DNA of 64,000 nt from the NCBI GenBank assembly GCA_028281765.1, contig JANQJF010000113.1:62001-126000 (forward strand), in the 5' to 3' direction. How positions within the stretch are numbered: the stretch's first letter is position 1; each line of letters begins with the position of its first letter. Source of the stretch: Planctomycetota bacterium (GTDB lineage: Bacteria; Planctomycetota; UBA1135; UBA2386). The notes beneath the pieces were generated by a model that had not been told where the DNA came from, ran no database searches, and was given only the letters and a program-made list of their open reading frames with translations. Below are positions 34,666-60,996 of the stretch, in pieces. The translations under genes and the position numbers were made by a program.

Positions 34666-37600
34666 TCACTCGCTTCCCGCTAGCGCCGGTGTCACGGCAA
34701 TCCCGTGTGCGTCGAGGAGCTCCCAGAGTTCCTCGAGTGCGGCGTCGCGGTCGAGATAGAACGCGCTACCGCGCACGCGGAAGAACGTCCAGCCGCAGCG
34801 CTCGAGCGCGCGCTGCCGGGCTTGATCGTGGTCGTACTGTTCGACGCCGTGCCAGGCGTCTCCATCGCACTCGACGGCAACGCGTCGTTCGTCGCCGACG
34901 ACGACGAGATCGATGTGGTAGCCGGCGACTTCGACCTGCGGCTGCACGCGGAATCCGCGCGCCGCGATGCGGTTGCAGACGTCGACCTCGAACCAGCTGT
35001 CGAATGGCGCGGGAGGATCGAGCCGGCCGCGGTCCCGCGTGTGCGCGAGTTCGCGCAGCGCCTCCGCGTCGAGACCGTCTGGAAGTGTCGACTTTGCGCG
35101 TGGATCGAGGCAGTACTCGAGCAGCGCGTGGCGAAGGCACTTCGTGCTCAGGTCGTTCAGCGTCACGCTGTAGAACAAGAACATCTGCTCGCGCGCGCGG
35201 CTGACCGCGACGTTGAAGCGGCGTTGTGCGCGTTCGTCCGCGAGCGTTCCGATTCGCTTCTCTTTGTGCGGCGCGGCGACGAGGCTCAGGAACATCACGT
35301 CCCGCTCATCGCCCTGGAACGCGTAGGCGTCGCCGCACACGAGATCTCGGTCGAGGATCGCGTCCGGACCGAGGCGATCGATCAGCTTGCCTTCGATGAG
35401 CTGCGCCTGATGCGGTCCCTGCAGGCTGATGACGCCGAAACTCTTCCCGTCGTAGCGAGGGTCGGTATGGCACGCCTCGATGCAGTCGACGATGGCGTCG
35501 GCCTCGACGGGATTGAACACCTTCGTGCCGGTCCCGTCGCGGTAGCCGCCCTCGACGAAGCGTGCATCGATGACCGGTGTCAGTCGCCCTGCGCCGAACT
35601 GCTTGAGCGGGATCAGCGGCTCCGTCGGGTAGCAGAGGTCGTTCGAGAAGCGGATGATCTCCGGCATGCAGCGGAAGTGCTCGCGCAGCCGCACGCGGTT
35701 GCCGTAGCGGATCTCCGCGAGGTCGAACAGGCTGTTCTCGAGACCGAACGCGTCGCTGATCGGCAGCTCGCCGAGATGCTGCTGCCGCAGATACTCGACG
35801 TCGTCGCGCGCGATGCCGACGTGGTCGGGGCTGATCTGCTTGTCGTCGCCGACGACGATGACCTTCTTCGTCAGGTAGAGGAGAAACAGTGCCTCCGGGC
35901 CGGACTGGCTCGCTTCGTCGATGATCACAACGTCGAACGCGTCGACGCCCGGACGGATCGTCTCGGCGACGCGGTAGATGGGCAGAATCCACGCGGGGAT
36001 CGCGTGGCGGCAGTGCTCCATGTGCTGCCGCGCATCGCGTCGGTGTTTCGCTGCGTACTTGCCGGTGCCCTTGCCGATGCGGCGGATCGCCTTCGTCCAC
36101 GCGATGAGGTGCTGACGCTCGTGCTCGTCGAGCTCGGTCAGGAGGTTGTGCCAAGCGCGGGTCTCGGCGAGCCGGCACAGCGTGTCGCGCTGCGCCGCCT
36201 GCCGCTGCTCGAGTTCGACGCGCAGGTCGTGTTCGCGCGCGGGATCGAGGCGGTCGTCGACGAAGCGGTGGGCACGACGGTGGGCCCAGGCCGCGCGGAG
36301 ATCGCCGATACGATCGTGGTGAGTGGGGTCGGCGAGCTGTTCCGCGAGGCGCGGCGCTCCGACGTCGCGAATCCGATCGAGCAACTCGTGAAGGCGTCGC
36401 AGCTCGTCGAGGCGTTCGAGTCCTCGGTCGTAGCGGGCCTCGTCGCGTTCGCGGAGGGCCGCCGCGAGATCGCGTGCGACCGGATGCGCGCCGTCGTCGA
36501 GCCGTGCGGCGAACTTCTCGAGCTCGTCGCGCACCGCTCGAAGCTCAGCGGCGTCGAGAGCCGCGCGTGCGCTGGTCGCGAGTGCTTCGACCGCATCGCG
36601 GTCCTGCCAGCGCGGAGCGCGCAGACCTTCGACGGGCGCGATGGCGTCGCGCAGTTTCGCGACGGCGTCGTGCAGCGACATCGCGTCGTCGAGAGGTTCG
36701 CACAGATCCGCGTACCAGCCCGCGCGGATCGCTCGGCTTCCACCAGGCGCGGCGCCGGTGCCTTCCCAGAGCGTCGTGAGTCGCTGCAGTCGACGGTCGA
36801 CGTCGATGGCGCCGAGGAGTCGTTCGAGCGCGGGGACGTCGGTGCACGGGCGTCCGTCCACCGTGACGGTTTCCCAGATCGCGCGTGTCCGTTTCACGAC
36901 GGCCGAGCGGAACACCCAGAAGCCGAGCCCCTTGCCGGTTGCGAGGTGGTCGCGCAGTGCCTCCGCCTCGGCGGCTACGGACTCGGCGTCGCGGTCGGCG
37001 ATACCCGCGATGCGCATCTCGTCGACCTCTCGCGCGCTGTCGCCGATGGCATCCACCTGCGCGCGCGTCGCTTCGAGCCGTTCGCGCCACGCGCGGTCCT
37101 GGTCTGCGAGGACGTCACGGGCCGCGTCCTTGGCCCAAGGCTGCGCGTGTTCGTCGCAGGCCGTCCACGCCGTGAGGAGCGACTCGAGCTCGCTCGCGAT
37201 CGTCGCGCAGGTGTCGTGGTCGGCGTTTGCGAACTCTTCCGGCGTCGTAGCGCCGTCGAGCTTGGTCTCGCGGGCGAACCGCGCTTCGATCTCGCCGTGG
37301 GTCGGGGGCGCAAGGTCGGCACCGCTGCCGTCGATCGGTCGAGGGCCGGGCTCGACACGCGCGAGCTCCTCGATGTCGGCGTCGCGCAGCGGGAACTCGC
37401 AGCTCGATTCGATCGGGTCGTCGATCCAGCCGAGCCGCTCTGCGTCGCGATCGAGACGTTCCGCGATGCGCATCAACGTTCCGAGGTAGGTTTCGCCTTC
37501 GAACTCGACGCGGTGCTCGAACGATCCGGCTTCCTGTACTTCTCGAAGCGATGCGTGCGCCGCCGCTTCCGCTTGCCGCGCGGCCTGGAGTTCGGCATCG

Positions 37601-39060
37601 AGCCGCTCGATCTCCGCCTCGCTCCGTTCCCGGTCGAAGTTCTGCTGTCGTTCGGTGATCGCGGTGACGGAGCGCTCGAGCGAGTGCATCGCATCGCGCC
37701 CGGCGCCCAACAGATCGACGCACAGATCCGCGAAGCCGCCAGGCAGCTTGTCGCGCAAGACCTCGAGTGCTCGTGCCGTGTGGCTCGTGACGAGGACGCG
37801 TTTGCCTGTCGCCAACAGGTGACACATCAGGTTGGCGATCGTGTGCGACTTGCCGGTGCCGGGCGGGCCTTGCACGAGCACGCCCTGCTGTGTTCGCAAG
37901 CGATCGAGAACCGTGGCTTGCTCGGCGTTGGAGGGCAGCGGCAGGTAGTCGCGATCCAGCGTAGGTTCCGGTTCGGCGTCGTGACCGTCCTCGCCGACGA
38001 CCGTCACGTAACGCGCGATGCCGAATGGGATCGGGCCGCCGCCGCGCAGCTGCTCGAGGATCTCCTCGAACGTGCGCAAGACCGACCGGTCCGAGCGATG
38101 CCGGAGGAGTAGCGCAGGCGCAAACGCGATCTTGCGCTCTTCGCTGACGCGTTTCGGCGGGTCCATCCGCTCGGCGTAGCGCGAGTCGGCCGCGACCGCG
38201 TTGCCCCACTGCGTGCAGATGTCGGCGACGTCGTCCGGCGACCAGATGGCGTCTCCCAGGTCGCGCACGAGGCTCTCGAGCTGAGACACGCGATCGGGCG
38301 GTGGTTGGTCGGTCGGATCGAGCATGTCCTGCTCGAGCTGGGGGCGCGCGCCGTCGACGCCCGGGCCGACCGTGATGCGGCCGTTGCGGGCGTCGATCTC
38401 GATCGAGGCATCGGCCGCGATCAGGTGGCGACGAATGCGGTCGCCTTCCTTGGACTTCCAGCAGAGCAAGCCGAGACCGAGCGCGACCTGGTAGTCCTCA
38501 CCGAGTCGCTCCTGGCGCTGATGCATCGCGAACAGCGTCGTGTAGACGCGTTGCACCTTGCGCAGGCGGCGGTCTTCGAGCGCCCAGGGCAGCCAGCGCT
38601 CCTTGACGTAGTAGTCGAACGAGCTGCGCACGCTCGGTTCCGACTCGAGCTCGCGTTCCTCGACGGTGGCGTCGCGCTCGCCGGCCGCAACGGCGATCTT
38701 CACGCGCTCTCGCAGTTCGGGCGCGTCGAGGGACGAATCTTCGAGCGTTTCCGCGACGAGCCAGGGCTCGAGCGCCGCGCTGGGTTCGGGCACCGAACGC
38801 AGCGAGGGCTTTTCGATTTCGAGCCAGACGTCGTCGCGTTCCGCGGCGTCGGAGGCCTCGTCGTCCGGGTCGCCGGCGACTCGCTCTCGCGTCGCGATCG
38901 AATCGCACTCCGGCTCGTTCGGGACGTCGCCGAACCAAAGCACCTGGTCGTAGTTGTCCACCGACCGCACCGCCGTCGAGCGGAGGCTCGTCAGGCCGTG
39001 GAGGAATCGGAACAGGGACGAGCAGCGGTCGCGGAGTACGTCGTCGGGGGTCTGAGTCAT
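34666..39060 (-). CDS. Large SF1-type helicase with C-terminal REase-like nuclease domain
   Basis: 1,464 residues. An N-terminal ~370-residue domain of unknown type precedes Walker A QGPPGTGKSHTIANL (about 396-410). A long helical insertion (about 460-1,000, rich in Asp/Arg/Ala) separates it from Walker B VVIIDEASQSGPEALF (about 1,043-1,058) and the second RecA lobe (VVGDDKQISP, AYAFQGDERDVMFLSLV, RRFNVAVSRAREQM). The last ~110 residues resemble a DUF559/Vsr-like nuclease fold: DLVVVGDERRVAVECDGDAW, then RQRALERCGWTFFRVRG. The Upf1/DNA2-like helicase plus nuclease architecture occurs in DNA-repair and anti-phage proteins. TACATT lies 13 bases before the ATG. It sits in a tight minus-strand gene run with a toroid-repeat exported protein and a methyltransferase. 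Confidence 0.88.
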   Translation of the reverse strand: MTQTPDDVLRDRCSSLFRFLHGLTSLRSTAVRSVDNYDQVLWFGDVPNEPECDSIATRERVAGDPDDEASDAAERDDVWLEIEKPSLRSVPEPSAALEPWLVAETLEDSSLDAPELRERVKIAVAAGERDATVEERELESEPSVRSSFDYYVKERWLPWALEDRRLRKVQRVYTTLFAMHQRQERLGEDYQVALGLGLLCWKSKEGDRIRRHLIAADASIEIDARNGRITVGPGVDGARPQLEQDMLDPTDQPPPDRVSQLESLVRDLGDAIWSPDDVADICTQWGNAVAADSRYAERMDPPKRVSEERKIAFAPALLLRHRSDRSVLRTFEEILEQLRGGGPIPFGIARYVTVVGEDGHDAEPEPTLDRDYLPLPSNAEQATVLDRLRTQQGVLVQGPPGTGKSHTIANLMCHLLATGKRVLVTSHTARALEVLRDKLPGGFADLCVDLLGAGRDAMHSLERSVTAITERQQNFDRERSEAEIERLDAELQAARQAEAAAHASLREVQEAGSFEHRVEFEGETYLGTLMRIAERLDRDAERLGWIDDPIESSCEFPLRDADIEELARVEPGPRPIDGSGADLAPPTHGEIEARFARETKLDGATTPEEFANADHDTCATIASELESLLTAWTACDEHAQPWAKDAARDVLADQDRAWRERLEATRAQVDAIGDSAREVDEMRIAGIADRDAESVAAEAEALRDHLATGKGLGFWVFRSAVVKRTRAIWETVTVDGRPCTDVPALERLLGAIDVDRRLQRLTTLWEGTGAAPGGSRAIRAGWYADLCEPLDDAMSLHDAVAKLRDAIAPVEGLRAPRWQDRDAVEALATSARAALDAAELRAVRDELEKFAARLDDGAHPVARDLAAALRERDEARYDRGLERLDELRRLHELLDRIRDVGAPRLAEQLADPTHHDRIGDLRAAWAHRRAHRFVDDRLDPAREHDLRVELEQRQAAQRDTLCRLAETRAWHNLLTELDEHERQHLIAWTKAIRRIGKGTGKYAAKHRRDARQHMEHCRHAIPAWILPIYRVAETIRPGVDAFDVVIIDEASQSGPEALFLLYLTKKVIVVGDDKQISPDHVGIARDDVEYLRQQHLGELPISDAFGLENSLFDLAEIRYGNRVRLREHFRCMPEIIRFSNDLCYPTEPLIPLKQFGAGRLTPVIDARFVEGGYRDGTGTKVFNPVEADAIVDCIEACHTDPRYDGKSFGVISLQGPHQAQLIEGKLIDRLGPDAILDRDLVCGDAYAFQGDERDVMFLSLVAAPHKEKRIGTLADERAQRRFNVAVSRAREQMFLFYSVTLNDLSTKCLRHALLEYCLDPRAKSTLPDGLDAEALRELAHTRDRGRLDPPAPFDSWFEVDVCNRIAARGFRVQPQVEVAGYHIDLVVVGDERRVAVECDGDAWHGVEQYDHDQARQRALERCGWTFFRVRGSAFYLDRDAALEELWELLDAHGIAVTPALAGSE

Positions 39061-43874: not shown

Positions 43875-43908
43875 TCGCTCCGGCGCGGTTGCGCCGAGCG
43901 GGATGCGG

Positions 43909-43914
43909 TATATT
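43909..43914 (+). promoter_or_regulatory. -10 hexamer TATATT, leaderless promoter
   Basis: TATATT ends 6 bases before the GTG at 43921 and lies inside the leader if translation began at the ATG at 43903. It therefore favours the GTG. Confidence 0.55.
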
Positions 43915-43920
43915 CGCGGT

Positions 43921-44892
43921 GTGATCCCGACCGCGCTCCTTCCGCTCCTGCTGACCATGATGCCGCAGAACGCGCCGCAGCCGCGCGATCCGGCACCGGC
44001 GCTCCTCGTCCCGGTCGTCGTCACGGCGCACGACTGGAAGCCGATGCATCCGGGCGATCGTCTGCTGCGATACCGGCGTAGCCCGCAGGGTGTTCGCGAA
44101 CTGTCGAAGCTCAGCGAGAGCCTTGCCGAGCTCGCGGAGATTCGCGAGGCCCAGCCCATGCACGGCTGCGCGATTCGTGTGTGGCTCGTAGATGGCGAGC
44201 GGGAGCCGAACCGGCGCGACGTGCGTGCGGTCATGGCCCGGCACGGTTGTGAATTCGAGTCGAGTGTCGATCCGAGCGAGCGCCCGCTCGACGAGTTGCG
44301 CGTGCTGCGGGTCAAGGTGCGCAAGGAGTGGCCGGGTGCGGCGAAGGCCGTGGAGCCCGCGCCGCTGCAGACCGAGGAGCGGGCGCGGCACGGCTTGCTG
44401 CGCGCGATTCTCGCGCTTGGCCGGCACTACGCGGCGCCCGAGGCGTCGCTGGTCCGCTACGCCGGTGATCCGCGCTTCGACGAGGTCTTGCGGCTCGCCG
44501 AGGCGCAGGTCGAACTCGAAACGGCGCTGGGATTCGGGGTCGTGTCCGGCGATCTGCAGCTCGACGAGTGGTCGGCGCTGCAGGGAGCGATGCTCGACGC
44601 GACGACTCTGCGCGATGAGCGGGTCCGTCAACTGCAGATGCGGCTGTGGTTGGTGCAGACACCGGGCGATCGCACGTCGTCGCTGCAACGCGAGGCCCGC
44701 GACGTCTTCCGGCTCGCGTACGCCAACCACTGGCGTGTCTGCACGCAGATCGCCGAAGATGCCCTCGCGAACGCGAAGCGCGTGGCCGGCGACCCGGCGA
44801 AGGCCGGCATGCACGCGCGCTACCTCAATCTGCACGAGTTCGCGAAGACCGCCGCCGAGGTTGCCCAGCTGCTGTCCGTGCCCGGCTACTGA
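43921..44892 (+). CDS. Exported protein of unknown function
   Basis: 323 residues from a GTG at 43921; an ATG at 43903 is possible but lies upstream of the TATATT hexamer. A signal peptide covers about the first 17 residues (VIPTALLPLLLTMMPQNA). The mature protein is Arg/Glu/Leu-rich and mostly helical (RELSKLSESLAELAEIREAQ, and DEVLRLAEAQVELETALGFG). No domain is recognised. It ends 62 bases before the ECF-hydrolase fusion gene on the same strand and could share its transcript. Confidence 0.65.
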   Translation: MIPTALLPLLLTMMPQNAPQPRDPAPALLVPVVVTAHDWKPMHPGDRLLRYRRSPQGVRELSKLSESLAELAEIREAQPMHGCAIRVWLVDGEREPNRRDVRAVMARHGCEFESSVDPSERPLDELRVLRVKVRKEWPGAAKAVEPAPLQTEERARHGLLRAILALGRHYAAPEASLVRYAGDPRFDEVLRLAEAQVELETALGFGVVSGDLQLDEWSALQGAMLDATTLRDERVRQLQMRLWLVQTPGDRTSSLQREARDVFRLAYANHWRVCTQIAEDALANAKRVAGDPAKAGMHARYLNLHEFAKTAAEVAQLLSVPGY

Positions 44893-44954: not shown

Positions 44955-47060
44955 ATGACCCATTCCCCGGCCGAAGTCTCGTTCGACGACCTCCTCTCCC
45001 ACACAGGGTGGGCGAGGCGACTCGCGCTGTCGTTGGCGCGAGATGCGGCCGATGCCGACGATCTCGTGCAGGAGACCTGGCTGCGGGCGCTTCGCAAGCC
45101 GCCGCGGCGAGGCGTGCCCGTGCGCGCCTGGCTGCAGCGAGTCATGCGGAACACCGCGGCGAGTCGATGGCGTGCCGAGGCGCGTCGTGAGACGCACGAA
45201 GCGCAGTCCGTTCGCGAGCCGGATTCTGTCGAGGACGTGTTGGCCCGCGCAGACCTGCAGGCGGAGATCGTCCAGGCCGTGCAGAGCTTGTCCGAGCCGC
45301 AGCGCGTCGTGGTCGCGCTGCACTACTTCGAAGAGCAGGCGACCGCGGAGATCGCGGAGCGACTCGCGCTCGACGTCGACGCGGTGCGCAAGCGACTGCA
45401 GCGCGCGCGGTCGGTGCTGCGCGATCGACTTGCGAAGCGATGTGGACCCGACTGGCGGGCTGGCTGCTTCGCCTTCGGCAGCGTGATCGGGGGTGCGCCG
45501 GGCATCGCAGGAGCGTTGGTGGTGACTGGGAAGCAGAAGATGATCGCGGCGGGTGTGTGTGCGGTCGTGTTGGGTGCGACATGGATGTTCGGGGACGGAG
45601 TGTTCTTCGAAAGTCCGGCCCCTGATGGAGGGCGCCCTGTGAGCATGCACTCGGACCTGGACGACAATGCAGATGGATCGTCGTCACCCGGCCGCGTGCA
45701 TCGTGATCGCGGGGCGGGGAAGACTGCGCCCGACTCGGATCCGGAGAATCGACAGCGGAGTCCACGTCCGTCGACGCCGACTGGTGACGCGGCGTCGCGC
45801 GATGGCGTCGAGAGAGCCGGAGACGCTGGACTGCAGCGCGCTGCGGCACTCGCCCCGGTGTTCCATGAGCCAACGGCGGGGGACGCGGTTCTGAACCGCC
45901 TCAACGGGCTTGCCAAGGCGTGGTTCGCCGCGCGACAAATCGAGGACGCGGCACGAGTGCCCGGCCAGCGCGATCGGGCACGTCGCGAGACGAAGCAAGC
46001 TTGGTTCGCGTTCGAGTCGACCTGGAGTCAGGTGCTCGGATCGCGCGACCTCTACACGAGTCGGAGTGATCTGCTCGCGGTGTTCGATCGCGCCTTTTCA
46101 TACACGGCGTCCGGAAGCGGTGTTCACGAGGCCGAGTCGGGGCGATACGCGTTTGTGCTACCCAAAGGATATGACCCGAACCACTGTTACCCCACGGCAG
46201 TCGTGCTTGCGCCAGAGAGAAAGCCGAGGACGGTTGCGCGTGGATTCAAGAAGTTCGCGAACAAGTTCGGTTTCCTCGTCATGGTGCCTCGCCTGGATTC
46301 GGCCGATTTGGATGGTTTCGACACGCCTGCCGGAGCGCGCGCGCTGTCGCAGGGCATGGACCATGTGCTCCGGATCGCTGGCGAGTTCCAGCGCGAGTAT
46401 CGAGTCGACCGCGACCGCTTGATGATCGCGTGCTGGAGAGGTGCCGGAGTGCTCGGGCTTCGGCTGGCGACGACGTTTCCCACGCGGTTCGCGGGACTCG
46501 CTCTTGCGAGTGGAGTCCATGACCCTTCGCTGCGTTACGAGAACCTGAACGGCATGCCGGTCCTGCTCACGAAGTCCGGCGACTCGGCGAAGGATCTGGT
46601 CGACCGTCTCGAGAAGCTCGCGCCCGGTTCCACGACCGTCGAGGGGCGGGCTGGGTCGTTCCCGTTCCGCCGGGAGGACTGGTTCACGAAACGTCGCCGC
46701 TACCTCATGCGTGACGTCGTCGTGGTAGCGCCGAACGACGATCGGTTCCGGAGCGCGTACTGGATCACGCTCGGGCGCTGTGATTCCATCGACGCCGGCG
46801 ATGGCGCGCCGATCCTCACCGCGCGTGTCGATCGTGCGACGAACTCGATCGAAGTGGAGACTCGCGGGGTGTACGACTTCCGACTCCGGCTGAGCCCCGG
46901 GCTCGTGGACGTCCGTGACTTCACGCTGGTTCTCAACGGTGACCCGGTGCGTCACCAGCTCGAACCGTCGTTGGATGCGCTGATTCGGTCGATTTACGGT
47001 GGCTTCGACACGACGCGAACCTACACGGCGGAGTTGGAAGTCGTCGTCCCGCCGCGTTAG
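44955..47060 (+). CDS. ECF sigma factor fused through a membrane span to a hydrolase-like domain
   Basis: 701 residues from the ATG at 44955. Sigma region 2 lies at about 15-75 (LALSLARDAADADDLVQETW) and region 4 at about 105-160 (SEPQRVVVALHYFEEQATAE, then a DVDAVRKRLQRARSVLRDRL helix). A membrane span follows at about 196-213, then a polar linker to ~290. The extracytoplasmic ~400 residues resemble an esterase/depolymerase alpha/beta-hydrolase (YAFVLPKGYDPNHCYPTAVV, VDRDRLMIACWRGAGVLGLR). At the nucleophile elbow, where GxSxG is expected, the sequence is ACWRGAG with Arg495 in the Ser position, so the domain is probably a binding or sensing pseudoenzyme. The sigma domain would be tethered to the membrane and report on the extracytoplasmic domain. 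Confidence 0.8.
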   Translation: MTHSPAEVSFDDLLSHTGWARRLALSLARDAADADDLVQETWLRALRKPPRRGVPVRAWLQRVMRNTAASRWRAEARRETHEAQSVREPDSVEDVLARADLQAEIVQAVQSLSEPQRVVVALHYFEEQATAEIAERLALDVDAVRKRLQRARSVLRDRLAKRCGPDWRAGCFAFGSVIGGAPGIAGALVVTGKQKMIAAGVCAVVLGATWMFGDGVFFESPAPDGGRPVSMHSDLDDNADGSSSPGRVHRDRGAGKTAPDSDPENRQRSPRPSTPTGDAASRDGVERAGDAGLQRAAALAPVFHEPTAGDAVLNRLNGLAKAWFAARQIEDAARVPGQRDRARRETKQAWFAFESTWSQVLGSRDLYTSRSDLLAVFDRAFSYTASGSGVHEAESGRYAFVLPKGYDPNHCYPTAVVLAPERKPRTVARGFKKFANKFGFLVMVPRLDSADLDGFDTPAGARALSQGMDHVLRIAGEFQREYRVDRDRLMIACWRGAGVLGLRLATTFPTRFAGLALASGVHDPSLRYENLNGMPVLLTKSGDSAKDLVDRLEKLAPGSTTVEGRAGSFPFRREDWFTKRRRYLMRDVVVVAPNDDRFRSAYWITLGRCDSIDAGDGAPILTARVDRATNSIEVETRGVYDFRLRLSPGLVDVRDFTLVLNGDPVRHQLEPSLDALIRSIYGGFDTTRTYTAELEVVVPPR

Positions 47061-47069
47061 AACGCGGGC

Positions 47070-47813
47070 ATGCCGGACTTCGCACGCCTCGCAGGCAAGC
47101 TCTCGCTCGACGGACGGACCGCGGTCGTGACGGGCGCGAGTGGGGGGATCGGCCGTGCGGTCGTCGCCGATTTCGTCGACGCGGGCGCGCAGGTGATCAG
47201 CGTCGACCGGCCGGGCGCGATGCCACCGCCGCACGCCGAGCACGTCGAGTGTGACCTCGGGGATCGCGCCGCGCTGACGAAGCTCGCGACCGAGCTGGCA
47301 GCGCGAACCCCGGTGCCCGACGTGTTCGTCCACGCGGCGGGCATCACCCGCGACGGCGTCATGTGGAAGATCGGCGACGACGACTGGGACAGCGTCATGC
47401 GCATCAACCTCGACGCCGCGTGGTTCCTGCTGCGCGCGCTCGTGCCCGGCATGCGCGCCGCGGAGCGCGGACACGCCGTCTTGATCGCGTCGGTGAATGG
47501 CGAGAACGGTCGCTTCGGCCAGACCAACTACGCGGCGAGCAAAGCTGGCCTGATCGGATTCGCGAAGTCCGCCGCGCAGGAACTCGCGCGGTTCGGCATC
47601 CGCGTCAACGTCGTGTCGCCGGGATACGTCGACTCGCCGATGACGCGTGATCTGCCGGACGAGGTCAAGGCGGCCGCGGTGGCGGCCACGCCGCTCGGCA
47701 AGCTCGGCAGTCCCGAGGACATCGCGAGCGCCGTGCTCTACCTGTGCACCGGACTCAGCGCGCACGTGACCGGGCACGTGTTGCGCGTCGACGGGGGCTA
47801 CGCGGCGCCGTAG
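47070..47813 (+). CDS. Short-chain dehydrogenase/reductase (FabG-like)
   Basis: 247 residues. The cofactor loop is TGASGGIG (21-28), and the catalytic residues are Asn113, Ser141, Tyr154 and Lys158 (SVNGENGRFGQTNYAASKAG). PGYVDSPMTRDLP and GHVLRVDGGYAAP close the fold as in classical NAD(P)-dependent SDRs. The usual NNAG is HAAG here. Probable role: 3-oxoacyl-ACP or -CoA reductase or a related keto-reductase; the substrate is not determined. It starts 9 bases after the ECF-hydrolase fusion gene on the same strand, so the two are likely co-transcribed. Confidence 0.92.
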   Translation: MPDFARLAGKLSLDGRTAVVTGASGGIGRAVVADFVDAGAQVISVDRPGAMPPPHAEHVECDLGDRAALTKLATELAARTPVPDVFVHAAGITRDGVMWKIGDDDWDSVMRINLDAAWFLLRALVPGMRAAERGHAVLIASVNGENGRFGQTNYAASKAGLIGFAKSAAQELARFGIRVNVVSPGYVDSPMTRDLPDEVKAAAVAATPLGKLGSPEDIASAVLYLCTGLSAHVTGHVLRVDGGYAAP

Positions 47814-53889: not shown

Positions 53890-56800
53890 TCACCGTGTCG
53901 GCAGCCGCAGCTCGATCGGCTTGTCCGGCACCGTCGCATCCACGCGAGCGCGGCGATCGTCCCAGCTTTCGATCTCGATCCGGTAGTTCCCCGGATCGAG
54001 CGGCATCGGGAAGGTCAGCTTGGGCTGGAACACGCCACGGAATGAATGACGCACGGTCGTGCTGAGGATGAGACGGTCATCCTGCGCGGTGCGAATGCGG
54101 AGCGTGCCGGACCAGCTCTCCTGATACTTCGACTGATCCTCCGGCAGCAGCACGTGCACGTCGATCGGCGTGACCCGTGACGGCAGCGTGGCACGCACGC
54201 GCGAATCCTCGCCGACGACCATGGCGTGCGTTCGCGATGGGAACGGGCCACCCCACACGATGACCTTCGCGTCGCCGCGATGCACGCCGGTCGCGACGAA
54301 CGTGCCGTCGGCCTGGCGCTTCGCGCGCCACGAGTCGCGCGCCGTGCGCACGGTCACGCGCAGTCGATCGCTCCCGACCGTCGGGTTGCCGTTCTCATCC
54401 TGGAACAGCACGGTGACTTTGCCGGCTGTCGGTGCGTTCACGTCCGCGAGGTCGAGGTGCTCGGCCTTGCCGAGTCGGATGGTCTCCGCAAACGTCCGCT
54501 CGCCGGGCACGCTGTAGCGCAGCCGGTACTTGCCGGGCGACAGCGGCTTGATCTCGAACGCGCCGGTCTCCGAGTCGGCCCAGACGACGACGTCGAAACC
54601 GTACGGGACGTTGTCCGCTTTGACTCGAATCGTGCTCTTCGGGACGACCGCGCCGCTGCTGTTGCGAAGCGTGCCGCGGATCGAGCAGTTGGGACGCTTC
54701 CAGCTGGGGACGCGCACGACGTGCGGTTTGTTCGAGGCTTCGACCGGTGGAATGACGTGGGTCGGGAACCAGTCGAACTTGTCGCCGCGCAGTCCTTCCA
54801 CGCCCTCGGGGAGCGGCGCGTAGACGGCGATCTCCCGGAGCTCGCCAGCCGGCACGTGCCACTTCGCGTGGTCGTGCGGGGCCAAGCCCTCTTCGTTGGT
54901 CGGCATGCTCATGCCCGTAGTGAACCCCTCGAGGCTGCGCATCGACGCGCGCCAGCCCACGAGTGGGTTGCCCGCTTCGTCGACGACGCGCGCCGACATC
55001 GGCAGCGGCGCGGCGATCTGCGGGTGCCATTCGTTGTCGCCGGGCTTCAGCGTGCGGTCGATCCGAACTTCCGAGCCGTCGATGTTCGCGCGCAGCCGGT
55101 TCGGGCCGGGTAACAACCCGTCGATCACGAAGACGCCGTTGTCGCCGGTACGCAAGGACCGCTCGCAGAGCGGCAGCTCGTAGACCCCTTCGTCCCAGCC
55201 CTCGGCGTAGACGGAAGCCTGGACCGCGGGCTCACCCTCGGCGTTCCTCACCGTGCCGACCAGTCGGGCGGCTTCCTGGAGCTGCAGCTGCAGTTCCGGC
55301 TCCGTGCCGCCGTGATGCTCGAAGCGCTGCTTCGCGAACCGCGACACGCGACCGTCGAAGTGCTCGGCGATGAGCATGTGCCGGCCCGGCTCGAGCCAGT
55401 CCATGCGGAATCGTCCGTCGTCGTCTGTCCGTGTGTACTGCTTCGTCGCGCGTGCCCCGAACTGCACGAGCGCGACGTCGATGTTCGGCACGGGTCCGCC
55501 GTTTTCGTCGACGACGACGCCGCTGACGGCGACCGCCGGGCCGCGGAGCTTCAGCGTGACCTTGGTCGTCTCTCCCGTTCGCCCGCGGACGTTTCGCAGC
55601 GAACTCAGCTGGTGACCGCTCGCGAACGCCCGAAGCTGGCCGCTGCGATCGACGTCCCGCATGCGGAGCACCCCGTCGGCGCCCGTGCGACCGAGTACGT
55701 TGTACATCCGGTGCCACTGATTGCCGAGAACGCCCTCGACCGTCGCGCCCGCCACCGGGTTGCCGTCGCGGTCGACGACTGTGACCTCGAGGTGCATGCC
55801 CGGTTCGAGCTTCAGCACGTGCTCGCCGCCGCTCGGCGGCGGCATGATCCCGGGCCACCAGAACTCGCTCGATTGGCGGCCGACGATCCCGACCTGATAG
55901 TAGCGCGGTTCTCCGAGCTCGATGAACTCGTGGCGGCCTTCGTCGTCGGTGTGCGCGTACTGCAATCGCGAGTCGCACATGAACATGACCGGAGCGTTCG
56001 GCACGGGGCGGTTCTCCGGATCGACGACGCGCACGCGGATCTTCTGGGACCCCGATGCGGGGGCGGGTGATTCGGGCTTCGCGGCGGGTTCTTCTGCTTC
56101 CACGAGCACGTCGCGGCGGGCGCCGCCGTCGTCGTTGCGGAGAGTCGCCGTCTCGGCGTCGGGCGTGATGCGGACGGTTTCCGCCGCCGGTGAAAGGGCG
56201 TCGTTCGGCCACAGCCCGAAGGTCACGGCGGTGGCGATCATGAGGAGGGTGGCGATCATCGTGTAGCTCTTCCAGGTCGATTGGATGGTCCACGCCGCCG
56301 GCAGCGTTGCCGCGACTGTCGCCCCATGAGCCATCACCGCTTCGCGCACGCGCCCGAGCACTTCCGCTGCGATGGCCGCGCTCGGCATCGCGAACGCCGC
56401 GCCGAGCGCGAGGCCCGTCGGCAGCGCCTTCCGCAGGAGCTCGAGACCGCGCACGACCTGCGTCCGCACCGTGCCCGCCTTGCGGCCGGTGGCATTCGCG
56501 ATGTCCTGCGCGCTGAGCCCGTGCTCGAGATGCAGGATCACCACTTCCCGGTAGGGCTGCGGCAGCTCCTGCATCGTGCGCGCGACGAGCTCGCGCACCT
56601 CGGCTTCGGATGCGTCGTCGGGTGGCTCCTGCTCCGACACGAGGGTGTCGAGGCTGGCGGCCGAGCCCGAAGCACGCTTGGCACGACGCCGGTCGTTGCG
56701 CACGGCGTTGCCGAGGATCCCGAGCAGCCACGGCTTCAGCGGCCGCGTCGGGTTCCAGCGGTTCCGGTCTTCGATTGCGGTCAAGAACGTCGATTGGATC

Positions 56801-56952
56801 GCGTCCTCGGCACGATGACGGTCGCCACCACTCAGATACCACGCGACGCGCCAGAGCTCACTGGCCGTCGCGTCGAACACCCGCGCGAGCGCTTCCGGAG
56901 CGCCGTTGGCGCGGAAGCGTTCGAACGCGGTGTCTTCGGGGCGGCGGGTCAT
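53890..56952 (-). CDS. ECF sigma factor fused to carboxypeptidase-regulatory-like repeats
   Basis: 1,020 residues. Sigma region 2 is at about 25-95 (WRVAWYLSGGDRHRAEDAIQ, then STFLTAIEDRNRW) and region 4 at about 130-185 (LPQPYREVVILHLEHGLSAQ, DIANATGRKAGTVRTQVVRG). A membrane span follows at about 235-255 (MIATLLMIATAVTFGLW). The remaining ~750 residues are predicted outside: repeated ~90-residue beta-sandwiches of the carboxypeptidase-regulatory type (RVRVVDPENRPVPNAPVMF, TVVDRDGNPVAGATVEG, VVDENGGPVPNIDVALV, VVDEAGNPLVGW). The sigma domain is tied to an extracytoplasmic sensor in a single chain, a design known from planctomycetes. Release presumably needs proteolysis. It resembles the gene at 57817-60996. 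Confidence 0.88.
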   Translation of the reverse strand: MTRRPEDTAFERFRANGAPEALARVFDATASELWRVAWYLSGGDRHRAEDAIQSTFLTAIEDRNRWNPTRPLKPWLLGILGNAVRNDRRRAKRASGSAASLDTLVSEQEPPDDASEAEVRELVARTMQELPQPYREVVILHLEHGLSAQDIANATGRKAGTVRTQVVRGLELLRKALPTGLALGAAFAMPSAAIAAEVLGRVREAVMAHGATVAATLPAAWTIQSTWKSYTMIATLLMIATAVTFGLWPNDALSPAAETVRITPDAETATLRNDDGGARRDVLVEAEEPAAKPESPAPASGSQKIRVRVVDPENRPVPNAPVMFMCDSRLQYAHTDDEGRHEFIELGEPRYYQVGIVGRQSSEFWWPGIMPPPSGGEHVLKLEPGMHLEVTVVDRDGNPVAGATVEGVLGNQWHRMYNVLGRTGADGVLRMRDVDRSGQLRAFASGHQLSSLRNVRGRTGETTKVTLKLRGPAVAVSGVVVDENGGPVPNIDVALVQFGARATKQYTRTDDDGRFRMDWLEPGRHMLIAEHFDGRVSRFAKQRFEHHGGTEPELQLQLQEAARLVGTVRNAEGEPAVQASVYAEGWDEGVYELPLCERSLRTGDNGVFVIDGLLPGPNRLRANIDGSEVRIDRTLKPGDNEWHPQIAAPLPMSARVVDEAGNPLVGWRASMRSLEGFTTGMSMPTNEEGLAPHDHAKWHVPAGELREIAVYAPLPEGVEGLRGDKFDWFPTHVIPPVEASNKPHVVRVPSWKRPNCSIRGTLRNSSGAVVPKSTIRVKADNVPYGFDVVVWADSETGAFEIKPLSPGKYRLRYSVPGERTFAETIRLGKAEHLDLADVNAPTAGKVTVLFQDENGNPTVGSDRLRVTVRTARDSWRAKRQADGTFVATGVHRGDAKVIVWGGPFPSRTHAMVVGEDSRVRATLPSRVTPIDVHVLLPEDQSKYQESWSGTLRIRTAQDDRLILSTTVRHSFRGVFQPKLTFPMPLDPGNYRIEIESWDDRRARVDATVPDKPIELRLPTR

Positions 56953-57816: not shown

Positions 57817-60800
57817 TCACCGCACCCGAAACCCCCGCGGCTCCCGCTCCTCCACCTTCACCGTCACCGTCGTCCGCCCAGTCGCCGAGACCTCCAACTC
57901 TTGCCGGTGATCCACCCGCCCTTTCTCGTCCTGCACCCTCACCCGGTGCTTCCCGGGCGCCAACCCCTCGATCAGCACCGTCCCGCCCGAGAAGTCCAAG
58001 AACCGAATCGAGCCTGGTGTGTCCCCGAGCGCACGAAACTGCAGTTCGCCGGACTCCAGCCCGACGATGCTGAGCTGGACGCTGCAGTTGCCGTAGTTCT
58101 CGCGCAGCTCGAAGTCGAGAACGTCCGTGCCCTCGATCATCACGAACTGCGAGCGCAGGAACGACCGCTCTTTCGCGTGGAGGGCCACCCAGTAACGACC
58201 CTCACTCAGGCCCTCGAATCGAAACTCCCGCTCGAGCCCGATCTCCTCCCGCCTCGAGTCGTCGATGTCGCCGTACGCCATCAGGTGTGCCGTCAGCTCG
58301 ATGCCGTCGAACCCCACGATTCGACCGGCGATCGCGTTGCCCTTGTCGATCGGGATCTTGACGTCGATGCGCGTCGAATCCTCCGGCACCGCGAACGGCC
58401 CGTGGATGCGGTGTGCGTAGTCGTCGTGGAAGACGACGAGCCGGGATTCGCCGGGGTTCGCGGTCTTGAACTCGAACTCACCCTTCTCGTTCGTCGTCAC
58501 CGTCGGCACGGTGTCGAAGCCGATGTGGCCGAGGTCGCCCGAACCCGCGACGAGTTTGACGGTCGCACCGGCGACCGGCTTGCCTGAAGAGTCGTCGTGC
58601 ACGATGCCTTGGATCGAAGATCCGCGCTTCATCAAGACGAGCACCTGTTCTCGCGGCGGGTCGACCATGGCTTCGGCCGTGAGCTTCTGTCGCGCGTAGC
58701 CTTCCGCGGAGATCGCGATCCAGAGCTGCTGACCGAGCGGGAAGCCACCGAAGCTCGATTTCCAGTATCCGTCGGTCCCGTTCACGCGGTCGGCCTTGCG
58801 GAAGCGCTCGTCCACATCGTCCTCGTTCGAGATCACGAGTTCGAACGACTCGATCGGCTGGCGAGTCGCCGCGTCGAGCACGCGCCCCGCCACGCTGGCA
58901 CCGCGCTGCAACGTGACAGTGACCCCGGTCATGCCGCGAGTGATGCCGGGTTGGCTTCCCGGGAGGTACCCTCGCAGGTACGCGACGACGGTGAGCGCGT
59001 AGTCCGGAAGGTCTTCGATCGCAAATGCACCGTTCTCGTCGGCAAACGCCTTGGTGCCGACTTCGAACAGCCAGCCCTTCTCGTTGCGTCCGCGGCAGAC
59101 CACTCTAGCACCGGGTAGCGGGGCGCCCGTGGCGTCGGCGACGATGCCCCGAATGGATCCGCCGCGTTCGAGGCGAACCTCGATCGGTCCCATGTCCTCG
59201 CGAATCTCGACTTTGGACGTGTGCTTCACGAATCCGCGGCGCTCGACCGACAGGTCCCTCGCGCCGGTCTGGGAATAGCGCAGCTCGAACTCGCCATTCT
59301 CGTCGGAGTACGACGACGAGGATGCGTTGAAGAAGCGCGCGTCGTAGCACCGCACGTGCGCGCCGGCCACGGGTTCGCCTTCGCCGTCGAGGACCACGCC
59401 GAGGATCGTCGAGCCGCGCTTGAGCACGATCACGAAGTCTTCGGCACCGACGCGAGCGCTCTCGCCGCTGCGTAGATATCCGAGCTTCTCCGCGAGGACG
59501 TAGTGTTCGACCGTCGCATCGACACTCGGCAGAACGAACTGGCCGTCTTCGTCGCTCTCGATGACGTATCGCTTCAGCGACGTCGACACGCGCGCCCCGG
59601 CGATCGGCTCGCCGGCTTCGTCGACGACGCGGCCGGCGATCCGTCCGCCGTGCGCGAGTGTGAAGTCCAGCCGGTGCTCTTCCGCCGTCTCCGGGATCGG
59701 GGCGTCCTGCGAGCTGGGCGCGAAGCCGTCTGCCCAGATCTTCATGTGGCGTGCGTGCGCGCCGCGGCCGACGAGGAACTCGTAGTGACCGGCGTCGTCG
59801 GACGTGGTTCGGTGGTCCGCGGTCGATTGAATGGTCGCGTTCGGGATCGGGTTGCCGTCTTGATCGCGGACGAACCCGTGCAGGCGGCACTCGAACGGCG
59901 AGACCGTGACGGTGAGATGTGCGGATTCGTCGCCGGGATGGATTGCTGCAGGACTGCACTGGATGCCGCGCGCCTTCGTGCTCGAAACGGCCGTGACCAT
60001 GCCCGCCGTGCGCGGCGGGTCGCCGTGCCACGAGAACTCGCCGCGCGCGTCGGTTCCGACCGACGCTTCTCGGGCGGGTGTGCCGTGGGTTTCGTATCCG
60101 TCGTAGAAGCGCAAGACGACGCGGCAGTTGGGATAGGGGAGACCCTGGCAGCGCGCGATGCCCGTGACGGTGAACGCACCGGTCGTCACGAGTTCGGCGC
60201 GTTCGGACGACGCGTCTTCGCTCGGTGCGTCCGTCTCGTCCTGCGTGACCGGATCTTGATTCCCTTCGAGCCGGGACTGCGCCAGGCTCGGTGGCGCGTC
60301 GTCCGGATCACTCGTCGGGCCCAGAACAGGGGGGCCCCACACCGCCCAGATCGTGAGGCCTGCGAGGATCAATCCACAAACGGCGAACAGCGACTTGGAC
60401 TTGCTCATCAAGACGGCTCCGGCGACGACGGGTGTGACGGGGGACGCATCGAGCGCCGCGCACGGGGTCAGCGCGACGATCCAGCTGCGGCGCGACCCGA
60501 AGTCACGATCGAGTTTGTGGCGCAGCTGCTCGAGACCACGGTGGAGACGCGACCGGACGGTTCCGTCGGGAACCCCGAGACGAGTCGCGATCTCCGCGGG
60601 CGACAGCTCTTCCCAGTAGCGCATCAGGAGCGTCGCTCGATACGGCTCGTCGAGTGCGAGCACGGCGTCGACGACTCGCTTGCGGTCGTGCTCGCGCTGC
60701 ACGACGTCTGCTGTCGAGGGTGCGGCGACTTCGTGCTCTGCGTCACGCTCTCGTGCTTGCCGCCGCCGCTTCCCGCGCACGTGATCGCGGACGAGGTTGC

Positions 60801-60996
60801 GGACGACCGAGGACAGCCAGGCGCGAGCGCGCCCCGCGTCACGAGGCGGCGACGTCATCGCGCGGACCCAGGTCTTCTGCACGATGTCTTCTTCGCCGTC
60901 GCCGCCGCGCAGGAGCGAGCGCACGAGCGCGCGGACGAAGTCCTGTTCGGCGAGGAGGGCCTCGGGGGCCGTCGAGCTGGTCGGGAACGTGGTCAC
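57817..60996 (-). CDS. ECF sigma factor fused to carboxypeptidase-regulatory-like repeats
   Basis: 1,059 residues from a GTG at 60996. Sigma region 2 spans about 18-85 (FVRALVRSLLRGGDGEEDIV, then QKTWVRAM). Region 4 spans about 115-165 (LDEPYRATLLMRYWEELSPA, EIATRLGVPDGTVRSRLHRG). One membrane span lies near 200-220 (SLFAVCGLILAGLTIWAVW). The extracytoplasmic ~830 residues hold at least six carboxypeptidase-regulatory-like modules (HGFVRDQDGNPIPNATIQS, GRVVDEAGEPIAGARVSTS, GVVLDGEGEPVAGAHVRCY, GIVADATGAPLPGARVVCR, GIVHDDSSGKPVAGATVKL). It has the same layout as the 1,020-residue neighbour. The likely role is a self-contained transmembrane transcription switch; signal and targets are unknown. 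Confidence 0.88.
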   Translation of the reverse strand: MTTFPTSSTAPEALLAEQDFVRALVRSLLRGGDGEEDIVQKTWVRAMTSPPRDAGRARAWLSSVVRNLVRDHVRGKRRRQARERDAEHEVAAPSTADVVQREHDRKRVVDAVLALDEPYRATLLMRYWEELSPAEIATRLGVPDGTVRSRLHRGLEQLRHKLDRDFGSRRSWIVALTPCAALDASPVTPVVAGAVLMSKSKSLFAVCGLILAGLTIWAVWGPPVLGPTSDPDDAPPSLAQSRLEGNQDPVTQDETDAPSEDASSERAELVTTGAFTVTGIARCQGLPYPNCRVVLRFYDGYETHGTPAREASVGTDARGEFSWHGDPPRTAGMVTAVSSTKARGIQCSPAAIHPGDESAHLTVTVSPFECRLHGFVRDQDGNPIPNATIQSTADHRTTSDDAGHYEFLVGRGAHARHMKIWADGFAPSSQDAPIPETAEEHRLDFTLAHGGRIAGRVVDEAGEPIAGARVSTSLKRYVIESDEDGQFVLPSVDATVEHYVLAEKLGYLRSGESARVGAEDFVIVLKRGSTILGVVLDGEGEPVAGAHVRCYDARFFNASSSSYSDENGEFELRYSQTGARDLSVERRGFVKHTSKVEIREDMGPIEVRLERGGSIRGIVADATGAPLPGARVVCRGRNEKGWLFEVGTKAFADENGAFAIEDLPDYALTVVAYLRGYLPGSQPGITRGMTGVTVTLQRGASVAGRVLDAATRQPIESFELVISNEDDVDERFRKADRVNGTDGYWKSSFGGFPLGQQLWIAISAEGYARQKLTAEAMVDPPREQVLVLMKRGSSIQGIVHDDSSGKPVAGATVKLVAGSGDLGHIGFDTVPTVTTNEKGEFEFKTANPGESRLVVFHDDYAHRIHGPFAVPEDSTRIDVKIPIDKGNAIAGRIVGFDGIELTAHLMAYGDIDDSRREEIGLEREFRFEGLSEGRYWVALHAKERSFLRSQFVMIEGTDVLDFELRENYGNCSVQLSIVGLESGELQFRALGDTPGSIRFLDFSGGTVLIEGLAPGKHRVRVQDEKGRVDHRQELEVSATGRTTVTVKVEEREPRGFRVR

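Follow-up and report, generated by a model that had tools for sequence, protein, structure and literature searches.

The gene at positions 44955 to 47060 on the plus strand of the window (the whole stretch of 64,000 nucleotides that was analyzed) codes for a 701-residue protein in which an ECF sigma factor is tethered by a predicted membrane helix to a pseudo-esterase, a hydrolase-like domain with Arg in place of the catalytic Ser. On balance, we favor a model of one-protein transmembrane signaling, in which the pseudo-esterase serves as an outside receptor and the tethered sigma factor is released by proteolysis. To our knowledge, planctomycetes possess very many sigma factors, the regulation of which is largely unstudied.

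The reading frame starts with an ATG at 44955, and its stop codon ends at 47060, in agreement with the original prediction. The domain order proposed there, i.e., sigma region 2, sigma region 4, membrane span, polar linker, and esterase-like domain, was confirmed by Pfam, AlphaFold2, and Foldseek. Sigma-70 region 2 covers residues 15 to 78 (positions 44997 to 45188; PF04542, E = 1.1e-13), and region 4 (Sigma70_r4_2) covers residues 104 to 153 (45264 to 45413; PF08281, E = 6.6e-12). Pfam, NCBIfam, and the AlphaFold2 fold revealed only these two regions, separated by a short linker, which is the hallmark of ECF (group 4) sigma factors; the protein scored 75 bits against the NCBIfam sigma70-ECF superfamily, with a cut-off of 42.9. 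In the AlphaFold2 model of residues 1 to 240, built with 39 paralogues as the alignment, sigma2 (residues 10 to 85) and sigma4 (92 to 163) were both predicted with high confidence. They are followed by a short juxtamembrane helix (residues 167 to 178, 45453 to 45488), for which the paralogues have the consensus RRxW...LxPL, then by a low-confidence stretch (180 to 195) and by a helix at residues 194 to 213 (45534 to 45593), Lys-rich on its N-terminal side. This helix fits a membrane span and is the single one predicted, also from the hydropathy of 40 paralogues. A polar linker rich in Pro, Ser, Asp, and Arg (residues 214 to 310, 45594 to 45884) leads to the pseudo-esterase domain (residues 311 to 701, 45885 to 47057). 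AlphaFold2 and the family alignment divide the latter, which was also recognized by Foldseek, into N-terminal helices, an alpha/beta-hydrolase core, and a C-terminal beta region. An assembly chimera is an unlikely source of the fusion, since the ORF is located inside a 276-kb contig and the closest copy that this genome contains shares only 35-36% identity with it.

The sigma-membrane half belongs to a class with many members in this lineage, most of which carry CarboxypepD_reg arrays. A search with the sigma-plus-membrane segment yielded 58 matches in the genome that harbors the fusion (E values up to 1e-12) and 0 to 38 in its relatives. Among 40 related loci taken from the fusion genome, 39 have the same plan of sigma factor, membrane helix, and large C-terminus; the best hydrophobic helix of these 39 paralogues starts near residues 185 to 216 and precedes a C-terminus of several hundred residues. 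The tethered sigma-CarboxypepD_reg proteins of the order are about 30-48% identical to the fusion protein in their sigma regions and share the position of the helix, but their ectodomains are mostly CarboxypepD_reg/Ig-like arrays rather than pseudo-esterases. In the fusion genome, 34 of the 39 paralogue C-termini form one similarity cluster, and the pseudo-esterase C-terminus stands alone. Pfam analysis of ten paralogues identified CarboxypepD_reg in six, often with Ig-like units, and no recognized ectodomain in the other four. CarboxypepD_reg and Ig-like units are normally extracytoplasmic. Two more tethered sigma factors with such arrays are found in the window, at 53890 to 56952 and 57817 to 60996 on the minus strand. 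The gene and its paralogues (the 58 matches) point to a class of proteins in which sigma factor, anchor, and outside domain form one chain and the ectodomains are interchangeable.

Across the order, which is identical with the class and comprises 154 genomes here, the protein described is the only tethered sigma factor with a pseudo-esterase; when the whole protein served as the query, no genome but its own gave a match along both halves. Similarly, the sigma profile detected no sigma region at 20 further loci, 11 of which had been chosen for their long open frames. The full fusion comes from this single genome, which is 88.8% complete in 129 contigs. Fused membrane ECF sigma factors are a known kind, to which the pseudo-esterase ectodomain is new as far as the literature surveyed shows; the general tethered sigma class may have been described earlier.

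Comparison with characterized proteins provided a framework for a mechanism. In IutY (ECF243) of Pseudomonas putida, the sigma factor is continuous with an anti-sigma factor in the membrane, from which it is released by Prc/RseP (PMC8999054). Like the fusion protein, IutY unites in one chain an ECF sigma factor, a membrane helix, and a part located in the periplasm (PMC8999054), and its release by proteolysis sets a precedent for the model. However, the extension of IutY is a recognizable anti-sigma factor that operates in a siderophore cell-surface system, whereas no anti-sigma domain was recognizable in the 701-residue protein, which leaves silencing unexplained beyond tethering. The actinobacterial ECF52 protein SCO4117 has a periplasmic carbohydrate-binding extension (PMC8999054). 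This protein, like ECF48 and ECF53 members, shares with the fusion the succession of sigma factor, membrane helix, polar or proline-rich periplasmic stretch, and ligand-binding-type domain (PMC8999054), although its ectodomain is unrelated to the pseudo-esterase. A membrane helix located C-terminally to sigma4, as supported here by AlphaFold2 and hydropathy, is also found in these fused sigma/anti-sigma factors of the ECF48/52/53 type. The latter are described with a ZAS zinc-finger segment, whereas a scan of the first 260 residues of the 701-residue protein and of its paralogues detected no HxxxCxxC motif.

According to the model that we favor, the sigma2-sigma4 part would be cytoplasmic and anchored to the inner membrane through one helix, and the C-terminal pseudo-esterase, non-catalytic by the Ser-His-Asp mechanism, would face outwards as a receptor or regulatory ectodomain. 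The trigger would be a ligand or protein partner that binds to the ectodomain or leaves it. The protein would then be cut outside and, subsequently, within the membrane by a site-2 protease of the RseP type, and the freed sigma factor would direct RNA polymerase. Two-step proteolytic release is proposed by analogy with IutY and, less directly, with SCO4117; an M50 protease of the RseP type, which has PDZ domains and the motif HELGH, is encoded in the fusion genome. Sensing of a ligand or partner by the ectodomain appears probable, and the sensor role assigned to the domain by the original prediction seems to be the most economical reading if it is understood as an outside-facing one. The specific suggestion of a polymer or an ester as the ligand is weakened, because Ser was lost group-wide and the fused copy has diverged at 25 of 63 conserved columns. 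Alternatively, the sigma factor might not be released at all and work from the membrane in the manner of ToxR/CadC-type one-component regulators, with the ectodomain altering its conformation or dimer state. The single membrane helix and the absence of an anti-sigma motif would suit such a mechanism, and ToxR-type membrane-integrated one-component receptors are established (PMC5936718). Nevertheless, loading onto core polymerase, which any sigma factor has to accomplish, is more difficult from the membrane, and IutY, the fused sigma factor that has been studied experimentally, is released by proteolysis (PMC8999054). We regard action from the membrane as rather unlikely.

The release model requires the ectodomain to be outside, a topology suggested by its secreted ancestry, by the ectodomains of the paralogues, and by the distribution of Lys. 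An outside location is ancestral for the captured domain, as its relatives, i.e., all family proteins other than the fused one, are stand-alone proteins with signal-peptide-like starts. In the 40 paralogues, Lys is enriched and Arg is depleted just before the membrane helix (48 K and 13 R in 640 residues, compared with an overall composition of 1.6% K and 10.4% R), in agreement with an N-in orientation by the positive-inside rule. The main doubt comes from the other hydrophobic stretch ahead of the main helix (residues 173 to 190, mean hydropathy of 1.72): if it also spanned the membrane, the ectodomain would be inside.

No Pfam family matched the C-terminal half of the protein, and the nature of the ectodomain was revealed by structure prediction and by the family profile. 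The AlphaFold2 model of residues 311 to 701, computed with 30 relatives as the alignment, had a mean pLDDT of 90.7. Its best PDB matches in Foldseek were esterases, namely, LC-Est1C (3wyd; E = 1.2e-8, TM score of 0.74 on the target), the PHB depolymerases 8daj and 9byu, and CE1 feruloyl esterases. Sequence alone was sufficient for the family profile to detect 8daj (E = 2.8e-6), and in this alignment the conserved Arg of the family falls on the catalytic Ser. The domain thus has the alpha/beta-hydrolase fold of PHB depolymerases and CE1 esterases and resembles them and LC-Est1C in both structure and sequence profile, with the nucleophile elbow and an FPxRFA motif in register. It differs from them by extra N-terminal helices, by the C-terminal beta region, by Arg in place of Ser, and by an empty His loop.

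The elbow of the fused copy reads ACWRGAG (residues 492 to 498, 46428 to 46448), and Arg495 (codon AGA, 46437-46439) occupies the position of the Ser of the GxSxG motif according to the profile and to ungapped alignments. Four distant relatives from the same bacterial family carry GHSMGG and align with the fused copy without gaps through the elbow and the FPxRFA-like motif, which places R495 on their Ser (VYLTGHSMGGHMTWRSAFQFPDRFA). The catalytic His expected after strand 8 is absent as well: the corresponding loop, RAGSFPFRRE (residues 564 to 573, 46644 to 46673), contains no His. Many unfused relatives have YPH there. An Asp is present after strand 7 (KSGDS), at a column that is not conserved. 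No Ser-His-Asp triad was found elsewhere in the domain, as the His loop is empty and the family has no conserved Ser column. With neither elbow Ser nor His, the fused domain is not a classical Ser-His-Asp esterase. The replacement of the GxSxG Ser by Arg495, as first predicted, was therefore upheld by the profile, the ungapped alignment, AlphaFold2, and Foldseek, and the structural comparison found the anticipated PHB depolymerase/feruloyl esterase fold without a genuine triad at another place. There is a precedent for a receptor of this type: GID1, the plant gibberellin receptor, is an alpha/beta-hydrolase fold that became a non-catalytic receptor after loss of a triad residue (PMC3531792). 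GID1 lacks the His but keeps the Ser for ligand contact, whereas the fused domain lacks both, and we do not claim common descent.

We then looked at the distribution of the domain. A scan of genome_contigs with the single protein gave no matches, and an alignment scan gave 37 loci. The pseudo-esterase is present in 31 of 34 genomes of the bacterial family and, by profile search, in 148 of the 154 genomes of the order, with the weakest matches covering only part of the domain. The fused domain matched the order-wide alignment from position 2 to 411 of 413 (E = 4e-108), and an independent single-sequence comparison matched it to an unfused copy that the fusion genome has on another contig, C74 (E = 5e-46). 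In an alignment of 31 members, of which the fused copy is one, the nucleophile column contains R in 21, K in 6, T in 2, and D and H in 1 each; none has Ser. Likewise, Ser is absent from this column in all of the 20 additional members that were taken from other families of the order. In other classes of the phylum, the elbow position at 20 loci is mostly G, A, or D, and Ser occurs in 3. The occurrence of Arg in 21 and Lys in 6 of the 31 members, as the survey of orthologues showed, rules out that Arg495 is a sequencing or assembly error, as do the location of the fusion inside a 276-kb contig and the identity of only 35-36% to the nearest copy.

Since Ser is missing from the entire orthologous group, the members of which are secreted and unfused elsewhere, the sequences indicate that this loss is ancestral to the group. 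The original prediction had envisioned an enzyme that died as it joined a transcription switch; the order of events was the reverse, with the secreted pseudo-esterase first and the fusion later. This draws attention to the secreted protein itself (L087-L117, L152), which has a fixed neighborhood and is found almost throughout the order, yet has no Pfam family. A second group of relatives, from another family of the order (L132-L142), has several hundred extra residues after the domain. In a related genome, the gene at L041:1899-3470 codes for a hydrolase-like domain in which Gly takes the place of the Ser and for a further C-terminal part that resembles, by eye, a histidine-phosphatase (RHG-motif) domain.

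The gene neighborhood indicated where the fused copy came from. In close relatives, at those loci that were obtained with named contigs, the gene of the stand-alone protein is flanked on one side by dxr and a gene for an rseP-type protease and on the other by a spermidine-synthase-like gene and a HEAT-repeat gene, as far as the contigs reach. All four genes also surround the unfused C74 copy (by Pfam, Peptidase_M50 with PDZ, DXP reductoisomerase, Spermine_synth, and HEAT), and the locus of the fused copy has none of them. The C74 copy is the nearest to the fused domain (34-36% identity), and the two share the states G219E, E282A, A315V, and A354P at conserved columns. Based on this synteny and on the shared states, the fused copy is probably a diverged duplicate of the conserved secreted pseudo-esterase, with the unfused original kept in the ancestral locus; a tree with a distant active outgroup did not root the fused copy reliably. 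In a tethered sigma factor of the lineage-specific class, the duplicate would have displaced the ectodomain normally present.

The extent of divergence raised the question of whether the ectodomain has a function. There are 63 columns at which at least 90% of the other members agree. The fused domain deviates at 25 of these, the most of any of the 31, compared with 13 in its unfused C74 paralogue and fewer in the remaining members. Such losses may reflect a new binding function or relaxed constraint. The domain could then be a degenerating duplicate, i.e., a mere anchor or folding unit that conveys no specific signal, and the restriction of the fusion to one genome would fit that view. However, the frame is open throughout the domain with a gene-like codon-position GC content, the complete hydrolase domain is confidently folded by AlphaFold2, and the alignment shows all 20 invariant columns of the family to be retained. 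We consider decay unlikely. That the domain remains an enzyme with a site other than the classical Ser/His is very improbable. In the family alignment, several charged and aromatic positions hardly vary, and 27 of 31 members have Arg or Lys at the elbow. However, R, K, T, D, and H all occur at the elbow position within the family, G, A, D, and other residues are found there when the phylum is considered, and the expected loops contain no conserved nucleophile or His.

Another feature of the paralogues is that Met and Lys are strongly enriched just ahead of the membrane helix, at approximately residues 180 to 200 of the 40 tethered sigma proteins. Met amounts to 4.5% next to the helix versus 1.4%, and 25 of the 40 proteins have one there. 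This pattern may be a relic of the fusion that founded the class, or it may mark an internal start of translation. Although the Met enrichment, together with Lys and a hydrophobic run, is reminiscent of a signal peptide, we give hardly any credence to a second product, i.e., a separate signal-anchored pseudo-esterase made from an internal start, as a sigma gene fused to a gene with a signal peptide would be equally expected to have it.

One-protein signaling by a released sigma factor thus remains our preferred reading, and the pseudo-esterase fusion represents a clean test case for it: as the genome still has the original, unfused and in synteny, ancestral binding and sensor function can be compared directly. 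The fusion might also be a Rosetta stone, revealing that the order-wide secreted pseudo-esterase, encoded beside an RseP-type site-2 protease, is a general receptor or gatekeeper for tethered sigma factors. We consider this a long shot. If true, a common pathway of proteolytic release would serve dozens of one-protein sigma systems in each genome, and alpha/beta-hydrolase pseudoenzymes would constitute a bacterial receptor class like plant GID1.

An SDR reductase gene (FabG/PhaB-like; 47070 to 47813, plus strand) starts with an ATG at 47070, which confirms the 9-base gap after the sigma gene that had been predicted and makes co-transcription of the two genes plausible. The proposal that this gene is a regulatory target was not supported, as the neighbor is genome specific and no promoter evidence was found. 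No sigma factor or pseudo-esterase gene is located within 1.5 kb of SDR orthologues in four other genomes, and in the nearest relative (acyl-CoA dehydrogenase 79% identical), neither the sigma gene nor the SDR gene follows the dehydrogenase gene within its short contig; the SDR was rejected as a conserved partner on the basis of these contexts. The search for sigma-70 consensus promoters found none, which says little on ECF-type promoters. The SDR scored below the equivalog cut-offs, and below those of all 25 best NCBIfam models listed. A PHA-cycle reading, which would combine the PHB-depolymerase-like domain with the FabG/PhaB-like SDR, was rejected as guilt by association only. Upstream, the acyl-CoA dehydrogenase-like gene is conserved in 30 of 34 genomes. 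The gene at 43903 to 44892 (plus strand) codes for a 329-residue protein with a signal-peptide-like start, which matched no Pfam family and nothing in the 33 related genomes of the bacterial family. Farther away, at 34666 to 39060 on the minus strand, lies a possible defense gene, which codes for a helicase-like protein of 1464 residues with a C-terminal domain of the MTES_1575 restriction-endonuclease type.
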